DNA of 31,251 nucleotides from a virus (IMGVR_UViG_3300017917_004031:1-31251); one strand, 5' to 3'. Shown: positions 11,115-30,024, numbered from the stretch's first letter. Numbers and translations: made by a program. Notes: generated by a model from the letters alone, not told the origin.

Positions 11115-11115
11115 C

Positions 11116-18555: not shown

Positions 18556-18637
18556 ATCAATAAATATTGGTAAGGCAAGGAAACCTTCTTACATTTACAC
18601 CTACGTTAAATAAAATAATAAGTATATACAAATATAT

Positions 18638-18834
18638 AGTCAGGTGGCGGAATAGCTATTTCAACCCCGCGTCGTCGGGATAATAGATACGGTTCGAGTC
18701 CGTTGTGGGGTCAATGAGTAGCTTTGGTAGACGCTAAAAAACTGCAATGAGGTATGTCCAATCCTCACATTAAATAAAAAGGGTATCAACGCAGGAGTGC
18801 GGAAGCGATGCAGGTTCGAGTCCTGTCCTGACTA
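18638..18834 (+). tRNA. tRNA-Leu-like element expanded by internal insertions
   Basis: AGTCAGG (18638-18644) pairs perfectly with CCTGACT (18827-18833), preceded by a T-arm GCAGG-TTCGAGT-CCTGT. After the 5' acceptor strand comes TGGCGGAAT, and at 18724-18734 TTGGTAGACGC; together these are the two halves of a bacterial tRNA-Leu D-arm. They are separated by a 70-nt hairpin. A further ~45 nt hairpin-bearing stretch lies between CTGC (18742-18745) and GCAG (18791-18794), the possible anticodon stem. At ~197 nt it is far longer than a tRNA, so it may be intron-bearing, mosaic or non-functional. Confidence 0.5.
18664..18711 (+). tRNA. Nested tRNA-like element (acceptor plus T-arm only)
   Basis: ACCCCGC (18664-18670) can pair with GTGGGGT (18705-18711), closing a T-arm-like hairpin ACGG-TTCGAGT-CCGT. 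Only 17 nt lie between, too few for D and anticodon arms. It lies wholly inside the larger tRNA-Leu-like element, within a longer imperfect hairpin (18654-18723). It may be a decayed tRNA or a tRNA-mimicking insert. Confidence 0.35.
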
Positions 18835-18840
18835 CAATAT

Positions 18841-18960
18841 GGTTCCTGAGATGAAGGTCATGTGCTGCGCTAACGGTATATGTCTTGAACTCCAGCATAG
18901 TGGTTTGCGATTGGGTTTAGCGACCCGATGGAAAGATGGGTTCGAGACCCATAGGAATCA
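18841..18960 (+). tRNA. tRNA-like element with extra internal sequence
   Basis: GGTTCCT (18841-18847) pairs with AGGAATC (18953-18959), next to a perfect T-arm ATGGG-TTCGAGA-CCCAT. A D-arm-like GCA-TAGTGGTT-TGC lies at 18895-18908 and a 7-bp hairpin with a 6-nt loop at 18910-18929. About 45 nt between acceptor and D-arm are unexplained. No standard 7-nt anticodon loop can be placed, so no isotype is assigned. Confidence 0.5.
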
Positions 18961-19766: not shown

Positions 19767-19781
19767 ATCATTTATTATTAT

Positions 19782-19810
19782 GAGATAAAGATAAGTGGCT
19801 TAGCAGTGCC
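19782..19810 (-). promoter_or_regulatory. Accessory promoter, degenerate copy (for 19371-19766)
   Basis: The coding strand has GGCACTG, then TATCTTTATCTC starting at the 18th base counted from the first G. The upstream box lies in the loop of the hairpin at 19794-19817. Confidence 0.5.
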
Positions 19811-19817
19811 AGCCACT
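19794..19817 (-). terminator. Hairpin terminator of the 70-aa gene
   Basis: AGTGGCT/AGCCACT stem (7 bp) with a 10-nt loop, after the stop at 19836. It overlaps the next gene's promoter. Confidence 0.65.
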
Positions 19818-20060: not shown

Positions 20061-20095
20061 TAATTGTGATGTAAATGTAAATGGGTAGTTTTGAC
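20061..20095 (-). promoter_or_regulatory. Accessory promoter for 19836-20048
   Basis: GTCAAAA and TACATTTACATCACAATTA on the coding strand, 16 nt from first G to first T. The GTCAAAA forms the loop of the upstream gene's terminator hairpin. Confidence 0.7.
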
Positions 20096-20100
20096 TACCC
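20083..20100 (-). terminator. Hairpin terminator of the 63-aa gene, with a promoter box in its loop
   Basis: GGGTAG/CTACCC with a 6-nt loop, 7 nt after the stop at 20108. The loop supplies GTCAAAA of the next promoter. Confidence 0.7.
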
Positions 20101-20107
20101 AATTACT

Positions 20108-20299
20108 TTAGTACATTTGATGTTTACAATAACGAACTGTTTTAAACGCGGATTTATTTGTCGAACAAGACATCGACATTAGTATAATCAGCATTACAAA
20201 CAATACCCATACTACATATAAAAAATTTGCTTGCTTTTGATGTGATTTAGTTACTTCGAAATCACCGTTCTCTAATTTTGTTACGTTAAAATCTGACAT
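20108..20299 (-). CDS. 63-aa membrane protein
   Basis: An N-terminal polar region (MSDFNVTKLENGDFEVTKSH) precedes one hydrophobic segment (about residues 26-46, LYVVWVLFVMLIILMSMSC) and a short basic tail. The Ser-Cys at the segment's end resembles a lipobox but lies too far from the N-terminus for a classical signal. It has its own promoter and terminator. Function is unknown. Confidence 0.7.
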   Translation of the reverse strand: MSDFNVTKLENGDFEVTKSHQKQANFLYVVWVLFVMLIILMSMSCSTNKSAFKTVRYCKHQMY

Positions 20300-20311
20300 A
20301 TGATTAATTAT

Positions 20312-20346
20312 TAATTGTGATGTAAATATATAAAAAAGGCTCTGAC
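20312..20346 (-). promoter_or_regulatory. Accessory promoter for 20108-20299
   Basis: GTCAGAG, then TATATTTACATCACAATTA at the standard spacing. The upstream box is in the hairpin at 20337-20352. Confidence 0.7.
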
Positions 20347-20352
20347 GAGCCT
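20337..20352 (-). terminator. Hairpin terminator of the 63-aa acidic gene, carrying a promoter box
   Basis: AGGCTC/GAGCCT with a 4-nt loop, followed on the coding strand by TTTTTTATA. The loop overlaps GTCAGAG of the next promoter. Confidence 0.8.
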
Positions 20353-20356
20353 TAAT

Positions 20357-20548
20357 TTAATTAATTTCTTCAACTGTACCTTCAATTTTAAATACTTTAT
20401 GATTATCATTAAACCACTGCTTTACAGTATCAAATGAATTACCATTTAATAATTCTACCTCATACATCTCTCTAATTAATGATTCTAAATCATTTACAAT
20501 GTAATAATTAGGTGTGTCAAATAAATCGATTACTAAAAATTGTGTCAT
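20357..20548 (-). CDS. 63-aa protein, unknown
   Basis: The start at 20548 (MTQFLVIDLFDTPNYY) excludes an 18-residue extension that only translates the promoter. The protein looks like a small alpha/beta unit, with residues 19-63 acidic and helical (ESLIREMYEVELLNGNSFDT). It is a single-gene cassette with promoter and terminator. No family is recognised. Confidence 0.7.
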   Translation of the reverse strand: MTQFLVIDLFDTPNYYIVNDLESLIREMYEVELLNGNSFDTVKQWFNDNHKVFKIEGTVEEIN

Positions 20549-20560
20549 AATGTTTGTTAT

Positions 20561-20595
20561 TAATTGTGATATAAAAATAAATGGGTAGTCTTGAC
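20561..20595 (-). promoter_or_regulatory. Accessory promoter for 20357-20548
   Basis: GTCAAGA, then TATTTTTATATCACAATTA at the standard spacing, with two changes in the core. Confidence 0.6.
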
Positions 20596-20600
20596 TACCC
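20583..20600 (-). terminator. Hairpin terminator of the 86-aa gene, with a promoter box in its loop
   Basis: GGGTAG/CTACCC, nearly identical to the hairpin at 20083-20100, 5 nt after the stop at 20606. Confidence 0.7.
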
Positions 20601-20605
20601 AATTA

Positions 20606-20866
20606 TCATTCAACACAAGTTTTTAAGACATATTCTATCATTCCATGAACATCCCAACTCTCAAATCTTTCATCATCAAATAATCCGATCATACCTTCAA
20701 GAGTTCTAATTTCAGATAGTTCATTTTTCATCTCTTCAATATCACTATCTAATTCTTCTTGTTCTTCTTCATCTATAGAACCATCATTATTTGAATATAA
20801 TTCAGTTCTTTCAATGATAAAATCGTTTAGGAAATTTTCCTTTAATTGTTCTAATGTTAATTTCAT
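20606..20866 (-). CDS. 86-aa acidic helical protein
   Basis: It begins MKLTLEQLKENFLNDFI. A Glu/Asp-rich centre (residues 27-50, with SIDEEEQEELDSDIEEM) is followed by a hydrophobic-aromatic end (SWDVHGMIEYVLKTCVE). The strong acidity could indicate a protein- or DNA-mimic inhibitor, but no family is recognised. It has its own promoter, which overlaps the 3' end of the upstream gene. Confidence 0.7.
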   Translation of the reverse strand: MKLTLEQLKENFLNDFIIERTELYSNNDGSIDEEEQEELDSDIEEMKNELSEIRTLEGMIGLFDDERFESWDVHGMIEYVLKTCVE

Positions 20867-20880
20867 TTGTTTTATTTTTT

Positions 20881-20914
20881 AATTATGATATAAATATAAC
20901 ATAATTACTTTGAC
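20881..20914 (-). promoter_or_regulatory. Accessory promoter for 20606-20866, overlapping an upstream stop codon
   Basis: GTCAAAG overlaps the last codons (TCA AAG TAA) of the 58-aa gene. TATATTTATATC follows at standard spacing. Confidence 0.65.
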
Positions 20915-21081
20915 AAACCAACAAATCTATATTGAATCGTATCTCCAACATTATATTTAGTTGTGCTATAAACACTATATGTTGTAGAATCAACAGCGCT
21001 TTTGGCTTCGTAGTGGAAACTACCTCCATAATAACCACCGCAATTCGCTATTATAAATAGCTTTATTATAATCGTTTTCAT
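20905..21081 (-). CDS. 58-aa small secreted or lipoprotein-like protein
   Basis: The frame opens at 21081 with MKTIIIKLFIIANCGGYYGG, a signal-like hydrophobic start with Cys14 in a poor lipobox (IANC). The rest is polar (YEAKSAVDSTTYSVYSTTKY), ending VGDTIQYRFVGLSK. The ATG follows the promoter core almost directly, so the mRNA may be nearly leaderless. It fills a gap otherwise unassigned between two cassettes. No family is recognised. Confidence 0.65.
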   Translation of the reverse strand: MKTIIIKLFIIANCGGYYGGSFHYEAKSAVDSTTYSVYSTTKYNVGDTIQYRFVGLSK

Positions 21082-21109
21082 GATGTAAAAATAAGTGGCG
21101 AGCCTTGAC
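21082..21109 (-). promoter_or_regulatory. Accessory promoter for 20905-21081
   Basis: GTCAAGG, then TATTTTTACATC, which abuts the ATG. The upstream box lies in the hairpin at 21095-21116. Confidence 0.65.
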
Positions 21110-21116
21110 TCGCCAC
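21095..21116 (-). terminator. Hairpin terminator of the 74-aa gene, carrying a promoter box
   Basis: GTGGCGAG/CTCGCCAC, 8 bp with a 6-nt loop, 6 nt after the stop at 21123. Confidence 0.75.
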
Positions 21117-21122
21117 ATTAAA

Positions 21123-21347
21123 CTAAATCCACTCTAATACTTCATTTAAACCCTCTTCATCATATTCTAATTCTTCTTTATTAGAAATTTCGAATAAGTT
21201 ATTAACATTTTCATTGTAAACAAATACATAATCATCATCATTTAATACTATATTTTCGACATCTACATATTCTGTACATATCTCAATAATTGTACCATGC
21301 ATTGAATCATAAATAAAACCTGTAACTCCGTCTTTAATTTTTAACAT
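21123..21347 (-). CDS. 74-aa acidic protein, unknown
   Basis: The start is ATG 21347 (MLKIKDGVTGFIYDSMHG). The upstream extension reads the promoter. It appears to be a small beta-rich domain with an acidic C-terminus (EISNKEELEYDEEGLNEVL). It is a single-gene cassette. No family is recognised. Confidence 0.7.
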   Translation of the reverse strand: MLKIKDGVTGFIYDSMHGTIIEICTEYVDVENIVLNDDDYVFVYNENVNNLFEISNKEELEYDEEGLNEVLEWI

Positions 21348-21358
21348 AACATTTATTT

Positions 21359-21393
21359 TAATTGTGATGTAAATGTAACACAAAAATCTTGAC
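21359..21393 (-). promoter_or_regulatory. Accessory promoter for 21123-21347
   Basis: GTCAAGA, then TACATTTACATCACAATTA at standard spacing. Here the box is outside any hairpin. Confidence 0.7.
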
Positions 21394-21401
21394 AAACAAA
21401 A

Positions 21402-21422
21402 AGCGCTTCATTACGAAGCGCT
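21402..21422 (-). terminator. Terminator of the AT-hook gene
   Basis: AGCGCTTC/GAAGCGCT, 8 bp with a 5-nt loop, followed by TTTTTGTTTG on the coding strand. Confidence 0.85.
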
Positions 21423-21456
21423 CTTGTATAACAACAAACAATAATTAACAACAAAT

Positions 21457-21888
21457 CTATTCTGCTATAACTGCTTCAGGCTTAACTACTTTCGGTCTGC
21501 CCGGCTTGATAGAAAGGCCTGCTGCTAGTTTTTCTGCTCTAGCCTGCATTCTAGCTTGGCGAGCTGATCCTTCTACAGCCGGACGTCCTCTTCTCAAGAG
21601 ACCCTCTTCACGCAAGCGAGCTTGCTCTGCTAGACGTAATTGTCTAGGTGAATTTGGATCAACGGGCCTGCCTTTACGCTTGATCTCTGCAGTAGCAACC
21701 TCGGCTACTGTAACAATTTGTACTTCCTCAGTTTGAGGTTCTACATCATCAAAATTCTGCTCAGCAAAATTCTCTTGAGCCGCAACAATTGCTGCTTCGA
21801 TTTCTGCTTTTTTCATACCTTTGATGTCGATGCCTAATGCTTTTGCTTCGGCTTTCATTGCATTGAATAATTCTAATCCGTTTTTCAT
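21457..21888 (-). CDS. SAP-like plus triple AT-hook DNA-binding protein
   Basis: This 143-aa protein begins with FNAMKAEAKALGIDIKGMKK (residues 8-27), resembling the helix-turn of a SAP DNA-binding domain. An acidic linker (41-58) follows. Then come three AT-hook cores spaced 28-29 residues apart: RKGRP (71-75), RRGRP (99-103) and KPGRP (128-132), joined by similar Arg/Ala-rich helices (SxRQxRxxxxAE). AT-hooks bind the minor groove of AT-rich DNA, and the genome is AT-rich. It may compact, bridge or regulate phage or host DNA. A smaller relative is encoded at 23440-23694. Confidence 0.8.
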   Translation of the reverse strand: MKNGLELFNAMKAEAKALGIDIKGMKKAEIEAAIVAAQENFAEQNFDDVEPQTEEVQIVTVAEVATAEIKRKGRPVDPNSPRQLRLAEQARLREEGLLRRGRPAVEGSARQARMQARAEKLAAGLSIKPGRPKVVKPEAVIAE

Positions 21889-21902
21889 AACTGTTTTTAT
21901 TT

Positions 21903-21937
21903 TAATTGTGATGTAAATATAATTAATTAACTTTGCC
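21903..21937 (-). promoter_or_regulatory. Accessory promoter for the AT-hook gene 21457-21888
   Basis: GGCAAAG overlaps the end of the 54-aa gene (AGG CAA AGT TAA). TATATTTACATCACAATTA follows at standard spacing. Confidence 0.75.
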
Positions 21938-22091
21938 TATAAACAACAAGATTAAATTTCTTATCTACTAGTTTACGGCCGTTTTTAAATGTAATATAGT
22001 TAATAACACCTAAGCTATACCACATTCTTAGTATACCCATTGCTTCGTCAGCCGATACTGAGCCTTTAATTAATTCTTTAATATCGTTCAT
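21927..22091 (-). CDS. 54-aa small protein, possible winged-helix-like fold
   Basis: The frame from ATG 22091 gives MNDIKELIKGSVSADEAMGI, then LRMWYSLGVINYITFKNGRK and KKFNLVVYRQS. The succession of helix, helix, then a beta-hairpin with basic residues is compatible with a small DNA-binding fold, but this is only a guess. Promoter upstream and the next promoter overlapping its stop support a real gene. Confidence 0.7.
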   Translation of the reverse strand: MNDIKELIKGSVSADEAMGILRMWYSLGVINYITFKNGRKLVDKKFNLVVYRQS

Positions 22092-22102
22092 AACCTTAAT
22101 TA

Positions 22103-22134
22103 TTATGATGTAAATGTAAGTGGCGAGCCTTGAC
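22103..22134 (-). promoter_or_regulatory. Accessory promoter for 21927-22091
   Basis: GTCAAGG, then TACATTTACATCATAATAA. The upstream box is inside the hairpin at 22120-22141. Confidence 0.7.
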
Positions 22135-22141
22135 TCGCCAC
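22120..22141 (-). terminator. Hairpin terminator of the 65-aa gene, carrying a promoter box
   Basis: GTGGCGAG/CTCGCCAC with a 6-nt loop; same stem and loop as at 21095-21116, so probably duplicated. Confidence 0.75.
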
Positions 22142-22146
22142 ATTAA

Positions 22147-22344
22147 TTAACCAATACTGTCTGCTATATAGCTTGTAATGCTGTCTACACTTTCTGTGTC
22201 TGTTGCACCTGCATCACTGTATTGATTCATCACTTCAATTAATTTGTCTGCAGCTTCTTTAATTGCGGTAGTTGCATTTGCATAATTTTCGTTACTGTCA
22301 AATAATCCGAAAATGTTGTTGTTGATTGCTTTTTTATTTGTCAT
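22147..22344 (-). CDS. 65-aa helical acidic protein
   Basis: The start is ATG 22344 (MTNKKAINNNIFGLFDS). The long upstream extension passes through the promoter and terminator and is rejected. Residues 20-45 are helical (TTAIKEAADKLIEVMNQY), and the end is Ser/Asp-rich. It is a single-gene cassette. No family is recognised. Confidence 0.7.
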   Translation of the reverse strand: MTNKKAINNNIFGLFDSNENYANATTAIKEAADKLIEVMNQYSDAGATDTESVDSITSYIADSIG

Positions 22345-22356
22345 AATATTAATTAT

Positions 22357-22392
22357 TAATTGTGATGTAAATGTAATACAAATAGCTCTGCC
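22357..22392 (-). promoter_or_regulatory. Accessory promoter for 22147-22344
   Basis: GGCAGAG, then TACATTTACATCACAATTA, spacing one longer than usual. The box spans the loop of a small GCTC/GAGC hairpin (22385-22396). Confidence 0.65.
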
Positions 22393-22402
22393 GAGCACAA
22401 AA

Positions 22403-22423
22403 AAAGCGCTCATAGAGCGCTTT
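22403..22423 (-). terminator. Terminator of the 136-aa gene
   Basis: AAAGCGCTC/GAGCGCTTT, 9 bp with a 3-nt loop and a T-run on the coding strand, 3 nt after the stop. Confidence 0.85.
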
Positions 22424-22426
22424 AAT

Positions 22427-22837
22427 TTACCAAATTTCAACCCATTTAGCTACATTCCATTGATCCTCAGTTTGACGTGATTCACTGAATTTATCTAGGC
22501 TATCAACTAAATAAACGCAGCTATCGCCACTAACATAGAAATAAGCTTCCTTCAATGATGCACTGAAATCTCCGTTAATGTCTAGCATGCAATACATATC
22601 TTTTTTGATATCATATCCTTTTCCAAACATCTGATCGCCTGCATCAATCAAAATTTTCTTGAACGCTTCATTGTCGTTCAAAAATTGCTTCCAATCTTTT
22701 CCGATGCAGCTAAATTCATTTTTACTATGCTGCAATGCAGGCATATTAACGATTTTAACTAATTCAGTAAATGATTTGTCTTTACTGTAGCCTAAGAAGG
22801 CTTGAGCAGCGTTGCTGCTTGCTGTTTGTTGTGTCAT
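22427..22837 (-). CDS. 136-aa protein, unknown
   Basis: It begins with a Gln/Ala-rich leader (MTQQTASSNAAQAFLGYSKD). A mixed alpha/beta body follows, with EFSCIGKDWKQFLNDN (about 41-56), DMYCMLDINGDFSASLK and YFYVSGDSCVYLVDSLDKF. It ends WNVAKWVEIW. It has a dedicated promoter and terminator. I recognise no family. The Trp/Tyr-rich, acidic character suggests a soluble cytoplasmic factor. Confidence 0.7.
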   Translation of the reverse strand: MTQQTASSNAAQAFLGYSKDKSFTELVKIVNMPALQHSKNEFSCIGKDWKQFLNDNEAFKKILIDAGDQMFGKGYDIKKDMYCMLDINGDFSASLKEAYFYVSGDSCVYLVDSLDKFSESRQTEDQWNVAKWVEIW

Positions 22838-22853
22838 AATTCAAAGAACTTTT

Positions 22854-22888
22854 TAATTGTGATGTAAATATAATAAAGTTACTTTGCC
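22854..22888 (-). promoter_or_regulatory. Accessory promoter for 22427-22837
   Basis: GGCAAAG overlaps the last codons (GCA AAG TAA) of the zinc-ribbon gene. TATATTTACATCACAATTA follows at standard spacing. Confidence 0.75.
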
Positions 22889-23079
22889 TTACCACCGCAT
22901 CTCGTACTGCATCTTTGAGCAAAAAATTTACTGTCGGCTAGAGGAGCCTTTTTAGGGGCTCTAGATCCTCCAGACCATCTAGAGGAAAGCAGCCTTCCCT
23001 CTCCGCACGCCGGACAAAGGTCCCCAGGGTCGTAAGACAAAAACTGTTTAGAGCATTTATTACACTTGGTCCTAGTCAT
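22879..23079 (-). CDS. 66-aa zinc-ribbon protein
   Basis: From ATG 23079 (a TTG lies four codons earlier) it reads MTRTKCNKCSKQF then DLCPACGEGR. The CxxC (residues 6-9) and CPAC (near 22-25) knuckles form a zinc ribbon. A basic, Ser/Arg/Lys-rich middle follows, and a C-terminal CSTRCGG may hold another metal ligand pair. Small ribbons of this kind often bind nucleic acid or RNA polymerase. It has no obvious own promoter and may be read from upstream. Confidence 0.7.
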   Translation of the reverse strand: MTRTKCNKCSKQFLSYDPGDLCPACGEGRLLSSRWSGGSRAPKKAPLADSKFFAQRCSTRCGGKAK

Positions 23080-23095
23080 ATCGTTAGACAAAAAT

Positions 23096-23117
23096 AGCGC
23101 TCACTTATGCGAGCGCT
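23096..23117 (-). terminator. Terminator of the acidic 78-aa gene
   Basis: AGCGCTC/GAGCGCT, 7 bp with an 8-nt loop, then TATTTTTG on the coding strand. Confidence 0.8.
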
Positions 23118-23122
23118 GTGCG

Positions 23123-23359
23123 TTAATAATTATCATCGTAGTCATCATCATCCTCATCCATCCACGACAAATCTTCTTCCTCCGGAGTAAACTCAATATC
23201 GTCTATTTCCTCTAGCTGAGCTATCAGATCATCAACTTGCTGACCCATATACTCTAGATCGATATTCTCGATGTTGGTTGCATTTAACATGGCTTCATCT
23301 AGGATATTATCGATTTCCTCTTTAGCCTTTGCTAGGTGTTTTATTATTTTATCTTTCAT
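23123..23359 (-). CDS. 78-aa extremely acidic coiled protein
   Basis: A basic N-terminus (MKDKIIKHLAKAKEE) leads into helices with Asp/Glu on the exposed face, ending in EEEDLSWMDEDDDDYDDNY. Such acidic tails occur in DNA-mimic and histone-binding-like proteins; here the basic AT-hook protein gene lies two genes upstream and could be a partner. It is expressed from the 80-bp regulatory cassette also found before the gene at 24122. Function is unknown. Confidence 0.7.
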   Translation of the reverse strand: MKDKIIKHLAKAKEEIDNILDEAMLNATNIENIDLEYMGQQVDDLIAQLEEIDDIEFTPEEEDLSWMDEDDDDYDDNY

Positions 23360-23435
23360 GGTAAAAAATTTTAGATAAATATACGAAAAAAATCGCCTAC
23401 AAACAAAAAAGTCTGCAGGCGATCTAGTAAAAAGC
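23356..23435 (-). repeat. 80-bp duplicated regulatory cassette, copy 1
   Basis: Identical base for base to 24481-24560. It contains a start codon, ACC leader, TATATTTATC core, a T-run and the hairpin of the preceding gene. TTTG boxes lie about 20 nt upstream of the core, as in Bacteroidota sigma-A promoters. Confidence 0.9.
23392..23423 (-). terminator. Hairpin after the small AT-hook gene (inside the 80-bp repeat)
   Basis: ATCGCCT/AGGCGAT, 7 bp with an 18-nt T-rich loop, then a run of seven T on the coding strand. Confidence 0.65.
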
Positions 23436-23439
23436 TACC

Positions 23440-23694
23440 TTAGGCTGCAGCCTCAACTTTTACTTTTGGGCGACCCGGTCCTACTCTCTCACCACGAGCG
23501 ATTCGTTCTGCACGTTCTTGCATTTTAATTGCACGTTTTGAAGTGGTTGATGCTGGGCGACCACGTTTAATTTCTGCTCCGTTTGCGATTCGTTCTGCTT
23601 TAGCTGCCATTTGAGCTTGACGCTTTGAACCTTCTACTACCGGACGACCTACTTTTTTAGTTGCAGTAGCAACTGTTGCATTTTCTGTTGACAT
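23440..23694 (-). CDS. 84-aa triple AT-hook protein
   Basis: Three cores, KVGRP (14-18), KRGRP (43-47) and GPGRP (72-76), recur every 29 residues. They are linked by helices with SKRQAQMAAKAERIANG-type sequence, the same repeat as in the 143-aa AT-hook protein but without its SAP-like and acidic parts. It is very basic. Its role is probably minor-groove binding to AT-rich DNA, either as a nucleoid-like protein or a packaged cofactor. It has its own promoter and terminator. Confidence 0.8.
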   Translation of the reverse strand: MSTENATVATATKKVGRPVVEGSKRQAQMAAKAERIANGAEIKRGRPASTTSKRAIKMQERAERIARGERVGPGRPKVKVEAAA

Positions 23695-23713
23695 AACCTT
23701 TATTATTTAATTT

Positions 23714-23747
23714 TATTATGATGTAAATATATGCTTTGGACTTTGCC
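23714..23747 (-). promoter_or_regulatory. Accessory promoter for 23440-23694
   Basis: GGCAAAG, then TATATTTACATCATAATAA at standard spacing, between the terminator at 23777-23798 and the start. Confidence 0.75.
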
Positions 23748-23776
23748 TCTCAACATTTGCTGTTGTGAGATAAAAA

Positions 23777-23798
23777 AAAGCGCTCGTGTGAGCGCTTT
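23777..23798 (-). terminator. Terminator of the 102-aa tagged gene
   Basis: AAAGCGCTC/GAGCGCTTT, 9 bp with a 4-nt loop and an eight-T run on the coding strand. Confidence 0.9.
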
Positions 23799-23801
23799 AA
23801 C

Positions 23802-24110
23802 TTACCAAATTTCTATACCTAATTCGTCTAGTTTTTCTATAAAATCTCTTATCTTCTCATCATCCTCATCATCAAAATTACCCTGATAAGCATCTTTCCC
23901 AGTGATGTCGGATAATACATCTAGCCATTCCTCTGAGCCTCCCTCAATCTCTTTACCTCCCATGGACTCAAAATAGTCTTCATCAATACCGTTTCGTCTT
24001 AAAACATCCATTACCTCTTGCTTGAGTATATCTTCTTTAGTCTGGATTTTAACTTCGTTGATACCGGCTAGTTCTTGTAAGCGCTTTGCTTCGTTTATTA
24101 ATTGTGTCAT
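23802..24110 (-). CDS. 102-aa tagged acidic protein (INEAKRLQELAGINE leader)
   Basis: Residues 4-18 are INEAKRLQELAGINE, an amphipathic helix ending in I-N-E, followed by VKIQ. The rest is acidic and helical (EDILKQEVMDVLRRNGIDED; then GNFDDEDDEKIRDFIEKLDE). The leader is nearly identical in the next gene although the remainders do not align. In T4, an N-terminal helix directs internal proteins into the prohead and gp21 cuts after (L/I)xE. The product may therefore be a capsid-internal, ejected protein. Confidence 0.75.
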   Translation of the reverse strand: MTQLINEAKRLQELAGINEVKIQTKEDILKQEVMDVLRRNGIDEDYFESMGGKEIEGGSEEWLDVLSDITGKDAYQGNFDDEDDEKIRDFIEKLDELGIEIW

Positions 24111-24121
24111 TGTAAAAATTA

Positions 24122-24484
24122 TTAAATATTATATGAAATACCATAAACAGATTTTCCGGCTATGGTTAATTTAAAATTAGTAGCGTCACCATATGTGTCT
24201 TTAACTTTTTTAGGGTTAAAAGAAAAATCCAACCCGCCTTCACCTAAACCAGCTATTTCTTGATCCTCATACCCATCCTCATCAGCAGCCATTTCTATCT
24301 GTTGTTCGCTATAGTATTCCATATCATTCTCATCCCAATTAAATTCAACAGCTAGTTGGTTCAAAAGTTCTTGCTTGTTTTGTTTAAGAAAATTAATAAT
24401 ACCCGTACCTGAAGGTTGAATTTTAACTTCATTGATACCTGCTAGTTCCTGCAGACGTTTTGCTTCGTTTATTAGTTTTGTCAT
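24122..24484 (-). CDS. 120-aa tagged protein (INEAKRLQELAGINE leader)
   Basis: It shares residues 4-22 with the 102-aa neighbour. After VKIQPSGTG comes a helical part (LKQNKQELLNQLAVEFNW), an acidic middle (AADEDGYEDQEIAGLGEGG) and a short beta-like C-terminus (NFKLTIAGKSVYGISYNI). It ends 11 nt before the next tagged gene, so both are transcribed from the 80-bp cassette. No family is recognised beyond the leader. Confidence 0.75.
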   Translation of the reverse strand: MTKLINEAKRLQELAGINEVKIQPSGTGIINFLKQNKQELLNQLAVEFNWDENDMEYYSEQQIEMAADEDGYEDQEIAGLGEGGLDFSFNPKKVKDTYGDATNFKLTIAGKSVYGISYNI

Positions 24485-24560
24485 GGTAAAAAATTTTAGA
24501 TAAATATACGAAAAAAATCGCCTACAAACAAAAAAGTCTGCAGGCGATCTAGTAAAAAGC
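24481..24560 (-). repeat. 80-bp duplicated regulatory cassette, copy 2
   Basis: Same 80 bases as 23356-23435, placed before the tagged gene at 24122-24484. It ends in the terminator of the next gene. Confidence 0.9.
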
Positions 24561-24578
24561 GCTCGTAGTGAGCGCTTT
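24556..24578 (-). terminator. Terminator of the third tagged gene
   Basis: AAAGCGCTC/GAGCGCTTT, 9 bp with a 5-nt loop and a T-run on the coding strand. Confidence 0.85.
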
Positions 24579-24591
24579 GTATTATTTTTTA

Positions 24592-24954
24592 TTATACTCC
24601 TGCTTTAGAATAAATATCAGGATCAGATAATGAAATCCAATTTAAATATGCATATCCTTCTGGGTCATAATCAGATACACTATAGCTCCATCTTACCCAC
24701 TCTTCTTTACTTATAGATTGTCCTGGTTTAAATGTTGATTTGAATGAATCAAGATGTTTTTCATCTTCATAACTATCTACTACATCTAATAATTCCTCAT
24801 ATGAATATTCATTTGGGGATTGATCAAAAGCTTGATCAATTTCATCTTTTTCACCCATGTCATAATCTCCATTATCTTCTTGATTTTCGTTAAGCGATCT
24901 AATACCTGCTAATTCCTGGAAGCGCTTAGCTTCGTTTATTAATTGTTTTTTCAT
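24592..24954 (-). CDS. 120-aa tagged acidic protein (INEAKRFQELAGI...LNE leader)
   Basis: The start is ATG 24954 (MKKQLINEAKRFQELAGI); a longer frame upstream reads non-coding DNA. The leader ends with RSLNE, again a T4-protease-like L-N-E. The mature part is acidic (DYDMGEKDEIDQAFDQ, then EELLDVVDSYEDEK) with a Trp/Tyr-rich C-terminus (WVRWSYSVSDYDPEGYAY). Three tagged genes in a row with different bodies suggest a leader spread by duplication and recombination. Confidence 0.75.
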   Translation of the reverse strand: MKKQLINEAKRFQELAGIRSLNENQEDNGDYDMGEKDEIDQAFDQSPNEYSYEELLDVVDSYEDEKHLDSFKSTFKPGQSISKEEWVRWSYSVSDYDPEGYAYLNWISLSDPDIYSKAGV

Positions 24955-24975
24955 GTTTAAATAAATAAATTTGTG

Positions 24976-24984
24976 TATAAATAT
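24976..24984 (-). promoter_or_regulatory. ATATTTATA promoter-like core before the third tagged gene
   Basis: TATAAATAT on the plus strand lies about 21 nt upstream of the ATG at 24954: the virion-gene core rather than the accessory promoter, which fits late expression of a packaged protein. Confidence 0.45.
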
Positions 24985-25322
24985 AGTAAAAAGAATAATG
25001 CCTACCACATCAAAAAAAAATATAAAAAAACATTGGCTACAAGATACGAACAAAAGCTGTGCCGAGCACAAAGATAACCTGCACAAAAATGCTAGGTCTT
25101 CCAAAGGAATGTTTGTATATTATGTCTTATCTCAGTTTTACACTCCTGCTGAGCCATTACGTGTTTGGATTCATTTTCTGGATTCCCACAGATACAAATT
25201 TTGTTTGTTCATTTTGGTTATAACTGTTTGCGGTGCTACAAAGGGCTGTGCTACTAAGTTGGGTAACTCACGGGCTACCAATCGAATTTGCTACTTGAAC
25301 GACAATACATATGTAAAAAGAA
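24985..25322. other. Unassigned 338-bp gap with GTAGC-type repeats
   Basis: No minus-strand frame of useful length is present. The minus strand holds repeated GTAGC/GTAGCAC words at 25228-25295, and a TGTGC/GCACA hairpin near 25057-25069 with GGCACAG then TATCTTGTAG at accessory-promoter spacing. A plus-strand frame of 128 codons exists but runs through the opposing terminator and is not accepted. A leader RNA or ncRNA is possible. Confidence 0.4.
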
Positions 25323-25353
25323 AAGGAAGACAACCTAGTTGGTTACCTTCCTT
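25323..25353 (-). terminator. Terminator of the 87-aa gene
   Basis: AAGGAAG/CTTCCTT with an inner AACC/GGTT stem and 5-nt loop; the coding strand continues with TTTCTTTTTAC. It lies 27 nt past the stop at 25381. Confidence 0.8.
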
Positions 25354-25380
25354 GTAATGTTTTTGCGCGTTTGCTTTGCG

Positions 25381-25644
25381 TTATTTGTGAGGCTTATATT
25401 CCTTCGCCATCCTGTCCGCCCCCAATCCTTCATACTTAAGTAACGCGTTAGCTACGTACATCTGAAATTTAGTGATTGTAGTACAACCATTGATGCTAGA
25501 TAAAATCGCTCGTTTGTCTTTGTCGTTGATGTTTTTTGATGAAACAAATTCTACTGTGCTTTGTTTAGCAATAGCTAAATCGGCTGTGTTGAAAACAATT
25601 TCTGAAATCTGTTCAAAAATTGATCTAATTTGTACTTTAGACAT
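25381..25644 (-). CDS. 87-aa helical protein, unknown
   Basis: It begins MSKVQIRSIFEQISEIVFN and is helical throughout (KDKRAILSSINGCTTITKFQ, then MYVANALLKYEGLG), ending in a basic EYKPHK. It is balanced in charge, unlike its acidic neighbours. It is a single-gene cassette with an accessory promoter; direct GGTACAAA repeats lie 83 nt upstream and could regulate it. No family is recognised. Confidence 0.7.
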   Translation of the reverse strand: MSKVQIRSIFEQISEIVFNTADLAIAKQSTVEFVSSKNINDKDKRAILSSINGCTTITKFQMYVANALLKYEGLGADRMAKEYKPHK

Positions 25645-25666
25645 ATAATTACTGCTTGTTGTTGCT

Positions 25667-25691
25667 GTAAAGATACGTAAAAAGCCTTGCC
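25667..25691 (-). promoter_or_regulatory. Accessory promoter for 25381-25644
   Basis: GGCAAGG, then TATCTTTACAGC at standard spacing, without the ACATCACAATTA extension. Confidence 0.6.
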
Positions 25692-25726
25692 AAGCACAAA
25701 GAAATTACAAAAAGAACACAAAAATT

Positions 25727-25756
25727 GGTACAAAATCGGTACAAAGTTGATACAAA
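25727..25756. repeat. Three direct GRTACAAA repeats at 11-bp period
   Basis: GGTACAAA (25727), GGTACAAA (25738) and GATACAAA (25749) occur exactly 11 bp apart, about one helical turn, so a protein could bind them on one face. Iteron-like or operator-like. Confidence 0.6.
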
Positions 25757-25790
25757 GTATATCTGGATATATGTGTCGTTGTGAGTTGGG

Positions 25791-25805
25791 TGTGCGGCGC
25801 GCACA
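25791..25805. repeat. TGTGCG/CGCACA inverted repeat
   Basis: A perfect 6-bp inverted repeat around GCG, GC-rich in an AT-rich setting. Confidence 0.5.
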
Positions 25806-25877
25806 ATCTTCTGACCCACACCACGCCTCGCCCCAACCATTCCCTAAACTCATTCCACCTATCACCCTAAACTCATT

Positions 25878-25905
25878 TTTCGGGCGCCCGAAACTCTCGT
25901 TTCGG
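25878..25905. repeat. 16-bp palindrome overlapping a second hairpin
   Basis: TTTCGGGC/GCCCGAAA (25878-25893) is perfectly palindromic. CCGAAAC/GTTTCGG (25888-25905) forms an overlapping, mutually exclusive hairpin. Confidence 0.6.
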
Positions 25906-25960
25906 TTTCCACACACTTGCGTTTAGACCACCCTCAACACCTTCTCACATCACACAACCC

Positions 25961-26185
25961 CTATTCATTTACACGCGAGATTTGCGCGTCTTTCGCAACC
26001 ATTTTCCATTTAAACTCATTTGTTTGTCCTATCTCATCACCAACATCATTACTCCAAAGTATCAACATAGTATTTTCCTTGTCGTTTAACATTGATTTAA
26101 ACCATTCTAATTCTTCTTCATCATTATGACTATACCAAAACTCATCATCTATTTCTATTTCTGCTTCTATTTTAATTATTCCCAT
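25961..26185 (-). CDS. 74-aa acidic protein
   Basis: It begins MGIIKIEAEIEIDDEFWYS, a strand rich in Glu, then an acidic helix (HNDEEELEWFKSMLNDK), TMLILWSNDVGDEIG and a basic-polar end. It is last in a three-gene run from the promoter at 26639-26674 (27 nt after the preceding stop). No family is recognised. Confidence 0.7.
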   Translation of the reverse strand: MGIIKIEAEIEIDDEFWYSHNDEEELEWFKSMLNDKENTMLILWSNDVGDEIGQTNEFKWKMVAKDAQISRVNE

Positions 26186-26212
26186 ATATTTTATTTATTT
26201 ACTGGGTATTAT

Positions 26213-26407
26213 TTATTCATCTATCTCCTCATTCTCACCCCCATTCAGCCCAAATTCATCATACAAATATTCCACAGCACCATATGCTTGTTCACCCGAT
26301 AGAAAATCATTCATAATCATGGTTAGCATTTGTGCATCGGTGTAACCCATTTCTCTTAAATTATTTAATAATACAAGAGCATTGTTTCTGTTTCGTGGTG
26401 TTGCCAT
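26213..26407 (-). CDS. 64-aa helical protein
   Basis: MATPRNRNNALVLLNNLREM, then GYTDAQMLTMIMNDFLSGEQ and AYGAVEYLYDEFGL: three predicted helices in a UBA-like or small three-helix arrangement, with an acidic tail. It starts 7 nt after the preceding stop. Function is unknown. Confidence 0.7.
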   Translation of the reverse strand: MATPRNRNNALVLLNNLREMGYTDAQMLTMIMNDFLSGEQAYGAVEYLYDEFGLNGGENEEIDE

Positions 26408-26414
26408 AGTTACG

Positions 26415-26627
26415 TTATTGTTTTGTGTATAAAATTCGTTCTACCTCGTTTAGTATTAATTCCTCATTCCCACGAGTCATAACCTCAATTGGATATCCTT
26501 CAGCAATGTCATCCATGTTATTTAATTGCCAATCTAAAAATTGAGCTATGTCATGGTATGTCCAATCATCTGATATACCTAATAAACAATGGGCTGCTTC
26601 TGTTATTAATTCTGATTTATTTATCAT
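26415..26627 (-). CDS. 70-aa protein, unknown
   Basis: MINKSELITEAAHCLLGISD, then DWTYHDIAQFLDWQLNNMDD and EELILNEVERILYTKQ: a small helical, acidic protein. It is the first gene of a three-gene operon driven by an accessory promoter. No family is recognised. Confidence 0.7.
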   Translation of the reverse strand: MINKSELITEAAHCLLGISDDWTYHDIAQFLDWQLNNMDDIAEGYPIEVMTRGNEELILNEVERILYTKQ

Positions 26628-26638
26628 AACCTTTATTT

Positions 26639-26674
26639 TAATTGTGGTATAAATGTATGAAGGAGGGCTTTGCC
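26639..26674 (-). promoter_or_regulatory. Accessory promoter for the 26627-25961 operon
   Basis: GGCAAAG, then TACATTTATACCACAATTA, spacing one longer than usual. The GGCAAAG makes up the loop and loop-side bases of the hairpin at 26661-26679. Confidence 0.7.
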
Positions 26675-26679
26675 CTCCT
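26661..26679 (-). terminator. Hairpin terminator of the 128-aa gene, built around a promoter box
   Basis: AGGAGGGC/GCCCTCCT, 8 bp with an AAA loop (coding strand), 2 nt after the stop at 26682. Confidence 0.8.
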
Positions 26680-26681
26680 AC

Positions 26682-27068
26682 TTAGAATACTAATTCCCGT
26701 CCATCACCACCATAACAATGCCATTTTCCATTGTTCCATACGTAGTGGTATTCTTCCTCAATCATTTCCTCTAGCGAGCCAACCACTATAGCTTTAATCT
26801 CTTCTGGGTCTTGGCCTCTATCACGTCCATATGCTAAACACCATTTGTCGTTGTGGGTGGATAGAATATCAAAATCTTGTTGTTCTCCAATTTCCTCTCC
26901 TAAGATACTCAAATCACCCAATGCTAATAATTCATCTACTTTAGCATCTGTTGTGTAGTGTTCTTTAAGAATAACCCCGTTGTGTTCTGGGTAACCATCC
27001 CAATGACAGTAAATAAACTTGATTGAACCATCTTCTAATTGTTTTCCAATGCGTGAACGTGTTGCCAT
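26682..27068 (-). CDS. Conserved phage protein (MATRSRIG...CHWDGYPEHNG family)
   Basis: This 128-aa protein begins MATRSRIGKQLEDGSIKFIY, then CHWDGYPEHNGVILKEHYT. This N-terminal signature (ATRSRIG, YCHWDGYP, G..L..HY) is one I recognise from small proteins of many phages, all of unknown function. Later parts are acidic (LGEEIGEQQDFDI) with a C-terminal WHCYGGDGRELVF. Single-gene cassette with accessory promoter and terminator. Confidence 0.8.
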   Translation of the reverse strand: MATRSRIGKQLEDGSIKFIYCHWDGYPEHNGVILKEHYTTDAKVDELLALGDLSILGEEIGEQQDFDILSTHNDKWCLAYGRDRGQDPEEIKAIVVGSLEEMIEEEYHYVWNNGKWHCYGGDGRELVF

Positions 27069-27081
27069 AATATTTTATTTA

Positions 27082-27116
27082 TAATTGTGATGTAAATGTA
27101 CGAACTTTATTTTGCC
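27082..27116 (-). promoter_or_regulatory. Accessory promoter for 26682-27068
   Basis: GGCAAAA, then TACATTTACATCACAATTA, directly after the stop of the 320-aa gene. Confidence 0.75.
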
Positions 27117-27123
27117 AATCAAC

Positions 27124-28086
27124 CTAAATTTCTGCAATAACATCATCAGTGTCATTGTTAGGTTGATTAGCCCATTCACTTATTGCTTGTTGGAGATGTT
27201 CTCGTGCTGCCTCAACTGGATTTTCTACACGTATTGCTCTTTCCTCTGTTGGTTCAGGCATTTTTCTTTCTTTATACATTGACTGCATATACTCATCTTC
27301 AAATCTTCTTATTTCATCACTCTGAAGCTCAGCGTTTGTTTTTCGCTCTGTCATTTGGGTTTTAAGTATATCTATAACATACTGTGGCAACCCCGTTTCC
27401 ATTGAATCGATACGTTCATCCTTAGCATTCCAAAAACTCGTTTCTCTATCCCAATCTGTGTTTGTGTTATGAAAGAATGCTACTTTATCGCCTGTAATTT
27501 TATTTAAACAATACACTAATACACCTCGATTAGCATAACGTCTGAAATAATCCCAATCATGTTTCATTGATGTGCACCATTTAGTTCCATATCCATACTT
27601 AACAGCAGAACGGTGTGTTAGTGGTCTAATCATTAACCATTCATCATCATCGTTTACTATGATTATTTGAGATTCCATTTCTTTATCTTGTAATCTCAAC
27701 TCAGCTATATTAACTACATTAACCAAATCATTTAGTGTTTTATACTTAGATATATCATTGTTGGTAATTAGCTGTCTTTCGTTTAAGTCATGAAATTTAT
27801 GTAGTGTAGCCACATCACTCATATTTAATGTATGACATAACACATCAAGCCATGTTCGCTTAGTAACACCATCATATTCAAATATATCTTGAGGACATTC
27901 CAATCCGTGCTCTCTAAAATACTCAGTTAATGTTCCGTCTAGTGTTTTATCCATCCTATTCTTGATAGAACCAACAAATAAATCAACATATTTAGACTTA
28001 CCTGATGGGTCTAACAATGTTATTAGATCCATCAATGTAGTATTTAGAAATTCGTTTTGTTTTTTAGCTTCCTTTGCCTTACTCAT
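27124..28086 (-). CDS. 320-aa phage protein with TKWCT motif
   Basis: After a helical N-terminal region of ~140 residues comes EWLMIRPLTHRSAVKYGYGT, then TKWCTS (168-173), a Tyr/Arg-rich helix, LVYCLNKITGDKVAFFHN and FWNAKDERID (218-227). The order (LTHRSAxKYG, TKWCT, YxxNK, FxNAxDExI) is one I associate with a phage family of unknown activity; the conserved Cys171 could be catalytic or a ligand. The C-terminus is charged and helical. It is the last gene of a four-gene operon and overlaps its neighbour by 4 nt (ATGA). Confidence 0.7.
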   Translation of the reverse strand: MSKAKEAKKQNEFLNTTLMDLITLLDPSGKSKYVDLFVGSIKNRMDKTLDGTLTEYFREHGLECPQDIFEYDGVTKRTWLDVLCHTLNMSDVATLHKFHDLNERQLITNNDISKYKTLNDLVNVVNIAELRLQDKEMESQIIIVNDDDEWLMIRPLTHRSAVKYGYGTKWCTSMKHDWDYFRRYANRGVLVYCLNKITGDKVAFFHNTNTDWDRETSFWNAKDERIDSMETGLPQYVIDILKTQMTERKTNAELQSDEIRRFEDEYMQSMYKERKMPEPTEERAIRVENPVEAAREHLQQAISEWANQPNNDTDDVIAEI

Positions 28087-28271
28087 ATTCGGGTGCTTAA
28101 TATGTACTTTTTAATGTAATTGAGTTTAAGTTGATTTGTTCTCACAAAATCAGCTTGACAATCAGTTAACTCACAGATAATATGTTTACCATCAACTGTT
28201 ACTGATTTAAGTGAATAACTAAGTTGACACTTCAACAGATTATCCGGAGTATGTCTGATTCTAAATTGCAT
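28083..28271 (-). CDS. 62-aa protein, unknown
   Basis: MQFRIRHTPDNLLKCQLSYS, then LKSVTVDGKHIICELTDCQA: a small beta-rich basic protein with four Cys that are not arranged as a standard zinc site. Its ATG overlaps the upstream stop (TAATG) and its stop overlaps the next ATG, so it is translationally coupled on both sides. Confidence 0.7.
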   Translation of the reverse strand: MQFRIRHTPDNLLKCQLSYSLKSVTVDGKHIICELTDCQADFVRTNQLKLNYIKKYILSTRI

Positions 28272-28411
28272 TAGCGCTTTTTTCTTGGTTTGTAATTGAA
28301 CTCAATTTCATCATCAACGATGACTTGTTTTTTGGGTCTACCATACTTAGCATTCTTTTTTGTTTGCTCTAACCAATCCTCTAATGCTTTCCAATTTAAC
28401 TTTTTGCTCAT
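28271..28411 (-). CDS. 46-aa basic protein with single AT-hook-like motif
   Basis: The frame from ATG 28411 reads MSKKLNWKALEDWLEQTKKN, then AKYGRPKKQVIVDDEIEFNY and KPRKKR. KYGRPKK (residues 22-28) is an AT-hook-like core and the C-terminus is basic. The stop overlaps the next start (TAATG) and the start lies 6 nt after the preceding stop, so it is a well-placed operon member. A nucleic-acid-binding accessory role is inferred. Confidence 0.65.
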   Translation of the reverse strand: MSKKLNWKALEDWLEQTKKNAKYGRPKKQVIVDDEIEFNYKPRKKR

Positions 28412-28417
28412 TTTATT

Positions 28418-28570
28418 CTATTTTACTGGTGTATAACTTAATATTTTAACTCCTGGGTATCTAGATTCAAGTGCTAATTTGGCTTGCTGCCATTGTGAAC
28501 CTTCAACTGTTTCTCTTAATGTCATACCCTTTGATGATGGGGTATTAAACAATACTAACCATTTATACAT
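28418..28570 (-). CDS. 50-aa protein, first gene of the TKWCT operon
   Basis: MYKWLVLFNTPSSKGMTLRE, then TVEGSQWQQAKLALESRYPG and VKILSYTPVK: strand, helix, strand. It starts 14 nt below the accessory promoter and is followed within 6 nt by the next gene. It looks like a small alpha/beta unit (beta-strand, helix AKLALESRYPG, strand). No family is recognised. Confidence 0.65.
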   Translation of the reverse strand: MYKWLVLFNTPSSKGMTLRETVEGSQWQQAKLALESRYPGVKILSYTPVK

Positions 28571-28583
28571 AACTGTGTTTATT

Positions 28584-28619
28584 TAATTGTGGTGTAAATA
28601 TACGAACGAGAGTTTTGCC
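28584..28619 (-). promoter_or_regulatory. Accessory promoter for the 28570-27124 operon
   Basis: GGCAAAA, then TATATTTACACCACAATTA, spacing one longer, just past the stop of the 77-aa gene. Confidence 0.75.
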
Positions 28620-28625
28620 AACCAA

Positions 28626-28859
28626 CTATTTAGTTCCGTAATCACGTTTAATTTTTTCGTTTATTGCCTCCGCGATGAAGTTACCTACCATGTCTTGAAA
28701 TTCTTCTGCTTCGTTTTCTGTTTCAAATTCATGTTGTAATGCACCCCATCCTCTTACTTCGCCTATCATTTGAGAGCCACCATCCGGTGATTGTTTACTC
28801 CATAGATATTGTCCCCAATTATCATAGTAAACATCTTTAAGCCATTCTTGTATTGTCAT
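28626..28859 (-). CDS. 77-aa protein, unknown
   Basis: MTIQEWLKDVYYDNWGQYLW, then SKQSPDGGSQMIGEVRGWGA and LQHEFETENEAEEFQDMVGN: a Trp-rich N-terminal part and an acidic helix with FIAEAINEKIKRDYGTK. AAGGAG lies 7 nt before the ATG, one of the few clear Shine-Dalgarno-like sites here. Last gene of a short operon with membrane proteins. No family is recognised. Confidence 0.7.
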   Translation of the reverse strand: MTIQEWLKDVYYDNWGQYLWSKQSPDGGSQMIGEVRGWGALQHEFETENEAEEFQDMVGNFIAEAINEKIKRDYGTK

Positions 28860-28862
28860 AGT

Positions 28863-28934
28863 TTATCTCCTTATGTTTTTACTAATCATTAACCCGAACC
28901 AAATCCCGATTAATATTATTGTTAGTGGTTGCAT
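28863..28934 (-). CDS. 23-aa membrane peptide
   Basis: MQPLTIILIGIWFGLMISKN then IRR: a single hydrophobic helix with a basic end. The ATG lies 2 nt after the preceding stop and the frame's last codons hold the ribosome-binding site of the next gene. It is probably translated between its neighbours, but its size limits confidence. Confidence 0.4.
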   Translation of the reverse strand: MQPLTIILIGIWFGLMISKNIRR

Positions 28935-28936
28935 AA

Positions 28937-29173
28937 TTAAAATTTACCCATTAAATGTCCTGCCGCTATCCATAACCCTTTACCCATAAGCATTACAATG
29001 CCAATAACTAATCCTGATACTATTAAAGCCATAACCCCGAATAACCAATTATGTATTATGGTTTCAAAAATAAACTCACGTTTTACAGCCTTAGAAATCA
29101 GGCAACCTATAAAATAAGGTACAAATATTATTACTAATGCTAATAATAATGATACTATTAATTGTGCTACCAT
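28937..29173 (-). CDS. 78-aa membrane protein with two transmembrane helices
   Basis: Hydrophobic segments span about residues 4-28 and 44-68, separated by a basic loop (SKAVKREFIFETIIHNW). The C-terminus is GLWIAAGHLMGKF. The protein could sit in the host inner membrane; a holin or superinfection-type function cannot be told from sequence. It has its own accessory promoter. Confidence 0.7.
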   Translation of the reverse strand: MVAQLIVSLLLALVIIFVPYFIGCLISKAVKREFIFETIIHNWLFGVMALIVSGLVIGIVMLMGKGLWIAAGHLMGKF

Positions 29174-29195
29174 ATTATTTATTTTTTATTAATTA

Positions 29196-29220
29196 GTAAA
29201 TATAACATCATTATTTTGCC
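29196..29220 (-). promoter_or_regulatory. Accessory promoter for the 29173-28626 operon
   Basis: GGCAAAA, then TATATTTACTAATTAATAA. The upstream box overlaps the stop of the preceding gene (GAT TAG GCA). Confidence 0.65.
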
Positions 29221-29779
29221 TAATCTAATGCGTAATAAAATCTATTTTGATTGTATTTAGCAACTTTATTTGTTTGAGCTAACTCACGATATGTCTGATT
29301 AGTGTTATCGTATACTCGCTCGAGTGATGTTTCCATTAGTAGTTGTTTACCTAATACTTCAGCAAACGTATTGTTTGATTCATCTACTTCGTTTTGTTCT
29401 GTGTTTGGTAAACCACAATAATTAGCTTCACCTACTTCAGATATAAACATGCCTGAATATATACCGTTTAATTTGTGTTTATCTACAAACACATCAGCAT
29501 TACACCATATATAAACGTTATTGTTTTTCTCCTTTAATAAATCAACCATCAATGAGTCAATAACATAACCACCTGAATTAGGAAATTTACCCATTGAAAA
29601 CAATCCCCAAGGCGAACCATGACCCATCATCATTATTTGGTCATGTTGGCTTATTAATGCTCTCATGTCTATATAAGATACACACCTGTAATAACAGTTA
29701 TGTTAGGTAGTTTTTCGTATATTGGTTTTAAAAAATCAGTTGACCTGTCATCAGGATGTATTATTAGTATTTTTTTCAT
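29220..29779 (-). CDS. Frameshifted gene, MKKILIIHPDD...MMMGHGSPWGLF protein
   Basis: An ATG at 29779 opens 36 codons (MKKILIIHPDDRSTDFLKPI; then YEKLPNITVITGV) ending in TAG at 29669. The overlapping -1 frame reads SYIDMRALISQHDQIMMMGH and continues 148 codons (from Met at 29666) to a stop at 29220. A -1 shift near the GTGTGT run at 29680-29685 joins them into one plausible ~185-aa protein: HPDD N-terminus, MMGHGSPWGLF, then VYIWCNADVFV. The start overlaps the upstream stop (ATGA). It may be an inactivating mutation, a sequencing indel or programmed frameshifting. Confidence 0.65.
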
Positions 29780-29976
29780 GAATGTAATGATTTACTTACC
29801 TCTTGGTAAGATTTATGGATATGGTTGGCTATTTCATTGAATGAATGATGACCAGGTACTTTTTCAGTATGTTGGATACGTGGACCATTTGGAAATGCCT
29901 CTTTCAAAATGTTACTTGCCTGTTTTAACTCACTGCCTGAGAACTTAGTTGTGTTGAAAATATCGTAATACGTCAT
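29776..29976 (-). CDS. 66-aa helical protein
   Basis: From ATG 29976: MTYYDIFNTTKFSGSELKQA, then SNILKEAFPNGPRIQHTEKV and PGHHSFNEIANHIHKSYQEV. It is helical with a His-rich middle. The alternative frame further upstream reads the promoter. Its stop overlaps the start of the frameshifted gene (ATGA), so the two are coupled. No family is recognised. Confidence 0.7.
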   Translation of the reverse strand: MTYYDIFNTTKFSGSELKQASNILKEAFPNGPRIQHTEKVPGHHSFNEIANHIHKSYQEVSKSLHS

Positions 29977-29984
29977 ATACTTTT

Positions 29985-30018
29985 TATTATGGTGTAAATA
30001 TAAGAAAGGGGCTTTGAC
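29985..30018 (-). promoter_or_regulatory. Accessory promoter for the 29976-29220 operon
   Basis: GTCAAAG, then TATATTTACACCATAATAA at standard spacing. The upstream box occupies the loop of the hairpin at 30008-30024. Confidence 0.7.
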
Positions 30019-30024
30019 AGCCCC
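30008..30024 (-). terminator. Hairpin terminator, carrying a promoter box in its loop
   Basis: GGGGCT/AGCCCC, 6 bp with a 5-nt loop, then TTTCTTATATTT on the coding strand. It follows the 56-aa gene after about 60 nt. Confidence 0.7.

Follow-up and report, generated by a model that had tools for sequence, protein, structure and literature searches.

We wondered why promoter boxes of a phage should lie inside hairpins that appear to end the preceding genes. The question was raised by a virus fragment of 31,251 bases, referred to here in its whole length as the window, whose - strand carries every large gene. A sequence-only reading of this fragment had pointed to seven places where an upstream promoter box forms the loop, or the loop with its flanks, of the previous gene's hairpin, and had proposed that one short sequence acts as terminator and promoter. 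The virus is T4-like and its host probably belongs to Flavobacterium-type bacteria. A 608-aa window protein gives matches to baseplate wedge families and shares 45% identity with its counterpart in the Flavobacterium phage immuto_2-6A, a 160-kb isolate. Gp23, the T4 major capsid family, is encoded by immuto and by the longer IMG/VR relatives G001, G002 and G004, which share the promoter of the window. The baseplate protein of Microcystis phage Mel-JY01 (PP395634.1) is 43% identical to that of the window over the full length, near to the Flavobacterium phage in this respect; its true host may be a Bacteroidetes companion in the culture. Near-identical phage genome records were not found. The hairpin-promoters sit in a cluster of small genes, of which 10 proteins tested gave no Pfam family. 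Two related small basic proteins (21457-21888 and 23440-23694), likewise without a Pfam match, carry repeated GRP motifs resembling AT-hooks and might bind AT-rich promoters.

The promoter, read on the - strand and numbered according to the spacing in F. johnsoniae (PMC6847099), consists of T(T)GG at about -34 to -32, the box G[GT]CA[AG][AG] (GKCAAR) at -28 to -23 and TA[CT]ATTTA at -12 to -5, followed by CATCACAATTA. In five lineages (the window and four relatives), nearly every promoter has its box starting 19-20 nt ahead of the ATTTA core, and the -7 element reads TA..TTTA in all promoters with A always in the final position. The Bacteroidetes sigma-A promoter is TTTG / TAHHTTTG (PMC6847099). 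The window promoter has a similar -33/-7 frame, with TTG about 20 nt upstream of the -7 element TAYATTTA and a host that lacks Shine-Dalgarno sequences, but its -7 element ends in A rather than G and it carries the additional conserved GKCAAR and CATCACAATTA. Position and conservation are what argue for promoter function of the GKCAAR elements. E. coli sigma-70 promoters showed no enrichment (47 found versus 61 expected), and a search for Sigma70 region 2 gave only a sub-threshold match in G003. In the gene at 20905-21081, start codon and promoter are fused (21079-21095, TATTTTTACATCATG), and the mRNA would be leaderless or nearly so if the start site keeps the usual spacing.

At least 20 promoters of the GKCAAR type lie on the - strand between 19.8 and 30.5 kb, and 16 of these were examined for hairpins. 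All seven hairpins of the sequence-only reading are present where it placed them, on the - strand, which is the coding strand. The composite at 20061-20101 comprises a hairpin at 20082-20101 (TGGGTAGT-CAAA-ACTACCCA) with the box GTCAAA at 20090-20095, the -7 element TACATTTA and the initiation region CATCACAATTA; the one at 20561-20601 has the hairpin TGGGTAGT-CAAG-ACTACCCA (20582-20601) with the box GTCAAG and promoter. Between them, at 20312-20353, the hairpin AAGGCTC-GTCA-GAGCCTT (20336-20353) with a U-rich tail is joined to the box GTCAGA and its promoter. In the composite at 21079-21116 the hairpin GTGGCGAGT-CAAG-GCTCGCCAC (21095-21116) covers the box GTCAAG, and in TATTTTTACATC the promoter is joined directly to the start codon ATG (21081); the composite at 22100-22141 repeats the identical stem (22120-22141) with GTCAAG and promoter. 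Further along, the composites at 26639-26679 and 29984-30024 contain, with their promoters, the hairpin AGGAGGGC-AAA-GCCCTCCT (26661-26679, box GGCAAA) and the hairpin GGGGCT-GTCAA-AGCCCC (30008-30024, box GTCAAA). We found an eighth composite, absent from the earlier reading, at 19775-19816 on the same strand, where the hairpin GTGGCT-GGCACTGCTA-AGCCAC (19795-19816) surrounds the box GGCACT ahead of a weaker promoter core, CTTTATCTCATAATAA. In 8 of the 16 promoters the box lies in or across the loop of a strong hairpin. When the box was held fixed and the flanks were shuffled (500 runs), strong hairpins arose in 0.08 of the 16 on average and in 2 at most, and in the local background 2.1% of positions have one; these two comparisons rule out chance hairpins. 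RNA folding z-scores were -4.0 to -5.9 for the hairpins and +0.6 and +1.6 for two hairpin-less promoters.

With at least 20 such promoters in the cluster, most lack a box hairpin, and which ones do is related to where the preceding gene ends. Three on the - strand follow a separate canonical terminator: 21359-21425 (box GTCAAG, terminator 21399-21425), 23713-23798 (GGCAAA, 23777-23798) and promoter 22372 (22357-22423, GGCAGA, terminator 22403-22423), the last with a weak 4-bp stem, GCTC-GGCA-GAGC. At 20880-20914, 21903-21937 and 22854-22888, also on the - strand, the upstream CDS crosses the box and there is no hairpin. Two further - strand promoters have no hairpin although the upstream stop codon lies 7 nt (27082-27116) or 6 nt (28584-28619) ahead of the box. 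Counted by class, excluding promoter 29999 (spurious automatic upstream ORF) and sites without a called upstream ORF, a hairpin is found in 15 of 24 promoters that have the preceding stop 3-25 nt ahead of the box and no other terminator, in none of nine where the CDS enters the box and in none of seven behind a separate canonical hairpin with a T-run (Fisher p = 0.0014 and 0.0068, pooled 4e-5). A strong hairpin is likewise missing at 18574, a + strand site with this type of promoter whose upstream gene is divergent. The class distribution together with this case indicates that the hairpin belongs to the preceding gene and that the promoter can do without it.

Promoter 18574 precedes a region of tRNA-like pieces (18600-18960, + strand), which are also present in relatives (L039 at about 5390-5510, L035 at about 11000-11420). 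They carry repeated GGTTCGAGTCC T-arm motifs, acceptor-like ends of the form GTCAGGTGGCG...CCTGACTACA, and TGGTAGACGC. ARAGORN and Rfam made no tRNA call on these pieces in any of the three sequences; they are possibly tRNAs with enlarged or interrupted D-arms.

The hairpins have energies of -10 to -20 kcal/mol, which are comparable to those of the separate terminators (-12 to -16). Termination of the upstream gene at the hairpins appears likely from this and from their distribution, and the overlap of a terminator-like hairpin with a promoter, as originally proposed, is borne out by what is seen in the sequence. In an alternative reading, transcription continues into the next gene and the hairpin protects the 3' end of the upstream mRNA or marks a processing site. 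Several tails are indeed weak U-tracts (3-5 U in 8 at 26654, 22115 and 20076), and five window promoters lack any terminator, so that read-through is tolerated there; likewise, hairpin and terminator are both missing at nine promoters that have a stop 3-25 nt upstream, and termination is therefore not always required. However, box hairpins and canonical terminators with good U-tracts are mutually exclusive. This is predicted if both do the same job and counts against mRNA protection, which we consider unlikely.

We compared stems, loops and register of the hairpins. In the window and four related lineages the centre of the hairpin shifts by 5 nt, lying between -13.5 and -18.5 relative to the core, and the loops are AAA, CAAA, CAAG, GTCA, GTCAA, AAAATA or a 10-mer, with the remaining box bases paired in the stem. 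Most hairpin promoters keep both the -33-side TGG and the box, with variable stem positions between them and the 3' arm in the spacer. The claim that stems differ while the box is kept holds even at a junction whose two flanking genes are both orthologous: the window (20076) has TGGGTAGT-CAAA-ACTACCCA where G004 (L039 6756) has TGGCGAGT-CAAA-GCTCGCCA, such that the stem GGGTAG has become GGCGAG with both arms changed and GTCAAA kept. In G003 this downstream gene family is preceded by a different gene, whose CDS runs through the box; GTCAAA is present and the hairpin is not. Covariation, suggested earlier as a check in related phages, gave a mixed result. In the set of five distinct sequences that share a register, two stem pairs changed on both sides and, judged by cells paired, the structure scored above every slid version; however, the set is small and the structure is not outstanding on every measure.

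These variations bear on two readings in which the repeat acts as DNA. It could be an operator, with a dimeric regulator sitting over the -33/box region: the inverted repeats do overlap the upstream promoter region, and some stems are found unchanged at unrelated genes (GTGGCGAG three times, GGGTAG four times). One regulator would need conserved arms, though, and here at least five stem sequences share one promoter, many promoters have none and the register varies, which makes an operator very unlikely. A promoter of the N4 virion RNA polymerase type, in which the extruded DNA hairpin is itself recognised, would equally account for a short conserved motif that lies in a hairpin ahead of the start site. 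N4 promoters require a 3-base loop on a hairpin whose place is fixed (PMC4496689), whereas in the window the centre shifts by 5 nt, loops span 3-10 nt and most promoters are hairpin-less. We rejected this reading, which we regard as scarcely credible, since register and loop both change from promoter to promoter and many lack the hairpin that every N4 promoter would carry. A search for the T7-type polymerase family (PF00940) gave no match, and is uninformative because it gave none in any control genome either.

An independent case came from the immuto phage (vB_FspM_immuto_2-6A, NC_055915), whose small-gene cluster lies directly upstream of the baseplate genes. The annotation of NC_055915 makes no mention of hairpin-promoter elements. 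Immuto and about 30 related IMG/VR contigs use another promoter, AGTTGC at N17 or N20 from TATATTTAGGTATCAATAATTAAAA, with classical spacing, of which we collected 95 distinct copies. A strong hairpin covers the TTG in 16 of the 95, compared to 0.2 expected from shuffles, and the TTG lies in the 5' arm in 15 of these hairpins and in the loop in one. In NC_055915, hairpins of this kind are located near 64490-64519, 67959-67982, 68705-68727, 69167-69194 and 69557-69589. The Immutovirus cluster thus resembles that of the window in belonging to a T4-like phage (Gp23), in having small genes upstream of the baseplate and in having the -33 box within hairpins at several promoters; it differs in that its box is AGTTGC and usually in the 5' arm, while GKCAAR of the window is in or across the loop. 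From this geometry, the rule is that a hairpin is drawn over the upstream promoter element and not that the box must be the loop. The position of the box in the hairpin loop is thus not a requirement, given the varying register, the mostly 5'-arm position in the immuto group and the many promoters without a hairpin. The same immuto record (L044 18607-37015) holds genes annotated for 7-deazaguanine DNA modification: QueC, QueD, QueE, FolE and DpdA.

Next to the hairpins, gene order changes. One hairpin-promoter stands ahead of unrelated genes at 22115 and 21090 in the window and in G003 (L037 15988); another is shared by window positions 20076 and 20576, G001 and G004, and a third by 26654 and G004 (L039 12266). 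Composites at different genes resemble each other over about 55 nt, outside of which identity falls to background, mostly 0.2-0.4. Between the element at 20327 and its counterpart in G001 similarity is 0.23 upstream, 0.93 within the hairpin and 0.98 downstream; of the two flanking genes only the downstream one is orthologous, which is why similarity begins at the hairpin. The neighbours of one gene family differ between lineages, and a single downstream gene family is preceded, in four lineages, by at least five different upstream families. A 92-nt unit of hairpin and second-type promoter is duplicated before two different genes on the - strand: copy 1 (23344-23435) has a long hairpin at 23390-23425 followed by TATATTTA, the second promoter type, and copy 2 (24469-24560) is 95% identical. 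The best reading of these data is that the composites lie at the edges of cassettes where gene neighbours were exchanged. Most units contain one or two genes, in line with the one-gene cassettes suggested by the sequence-only reading; its term 'moron-like' is a mere analogy.

Taken together, we put at about 0.8 the probability that the window carries composite terminator-promoter elements in a variable small-gene cluster of a T4-like phage with a Flavobacterium-type host. The RNA polymerase reading the promoter (TTG at about -33, GKCAAR at about -28 to -23, TAYATTTA and CATCACAATTA) would be that of the host. In transcripts of the upstream gene, these bases would fold as an RNA hairpin just past its stop codon, the -33/box side providing the 5' arm, the freely varying spacer the 3' arm, and the T-rich spacer and -7 region a partial U-tract. 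From this layout the upstream mRNA is expected to end about 5-15 nt ahead of the next start site. A hairpin would be added only where a co-directional upstream gene ends just ahead of the promoter without a terminator of its own. Short and similar as they are, the composites could let recombination, inside them or next to them, swap genes one at a time, a step suggested by conserved composites with changed neighbours. That the overlap is itself regulatory, with terminating and initiating polymerases excluding or recycling each other, we consider doubtful; if true, the output of each small gene would be set by the transcription of its neighbour. The immuto phage and Flavobacterium sp. LMO8 offer a cultured phage-host pair for measuring the overlap of termination and initiation, and the uncultivated phage group gains a defined promoter motif.

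Promoter-early stem-loops (PeSLs) are a precedent in T4-type phages that the sequence-only reading had left unnamed. Arbiol et al. in 2010 and Comeau et al. in 2014 reportedly dealt with PeSLs of these phages. Our literature search on overlapping terminators and promoters found no closer system. PeSLs are published as motifs of T4-like phages that combine promoter and terminator and mediate the shuffling of genes (PMC4503421). We measured their geometry directly in the RB49 and T4 sequences. In RB49, an E. coli phage, a hairpin touches the promoter or its spacer in 8 of 20 early-type promoters, and in most of these the loop contains or adjoins the -10 box: six hairpins touch the -10 box, two lie within the spacer and none is over the -35. 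The principle of a kept promoter box in a hairpin with changing stems is therefore not new. The window elements likewise combine promoter and stem-loop in one short intergenic sequence, are located among small variable genes of a T4-like genome (baseplate wedge in the window, Gp23 in relatives and immuto) and mark junctions where gene order changes and similarity breaks at the hairpin edge. HGTV-1, a haloarchaeal myovirus, has a repeated promoter-like box and inverted repeat before many small genes, which its authors liken to PeSLs (PMC3950731); its promoter is of the archaeal TATA-box type, and we liken it here by description. In contrast to RB49, where hairpins cover the -10 or the spacer, those of the window cover the -33/box region and never the whole -7, and their promoter is Bacteroidetes-like with the extra GKCAAR box. 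The window elements are thus PeSL-like, with a putative terminator and presumed early timing, and what differs is the position of the hairpin, the type of promoter and the phage group. Bacteroidetes T4-like phages appear to reach the composite design of coliphages with the hairpin over the -33 side rather than the -10, and because the element covered differs, this suggests a design driven by compaction and gene swapping and not by one inherited sequence.
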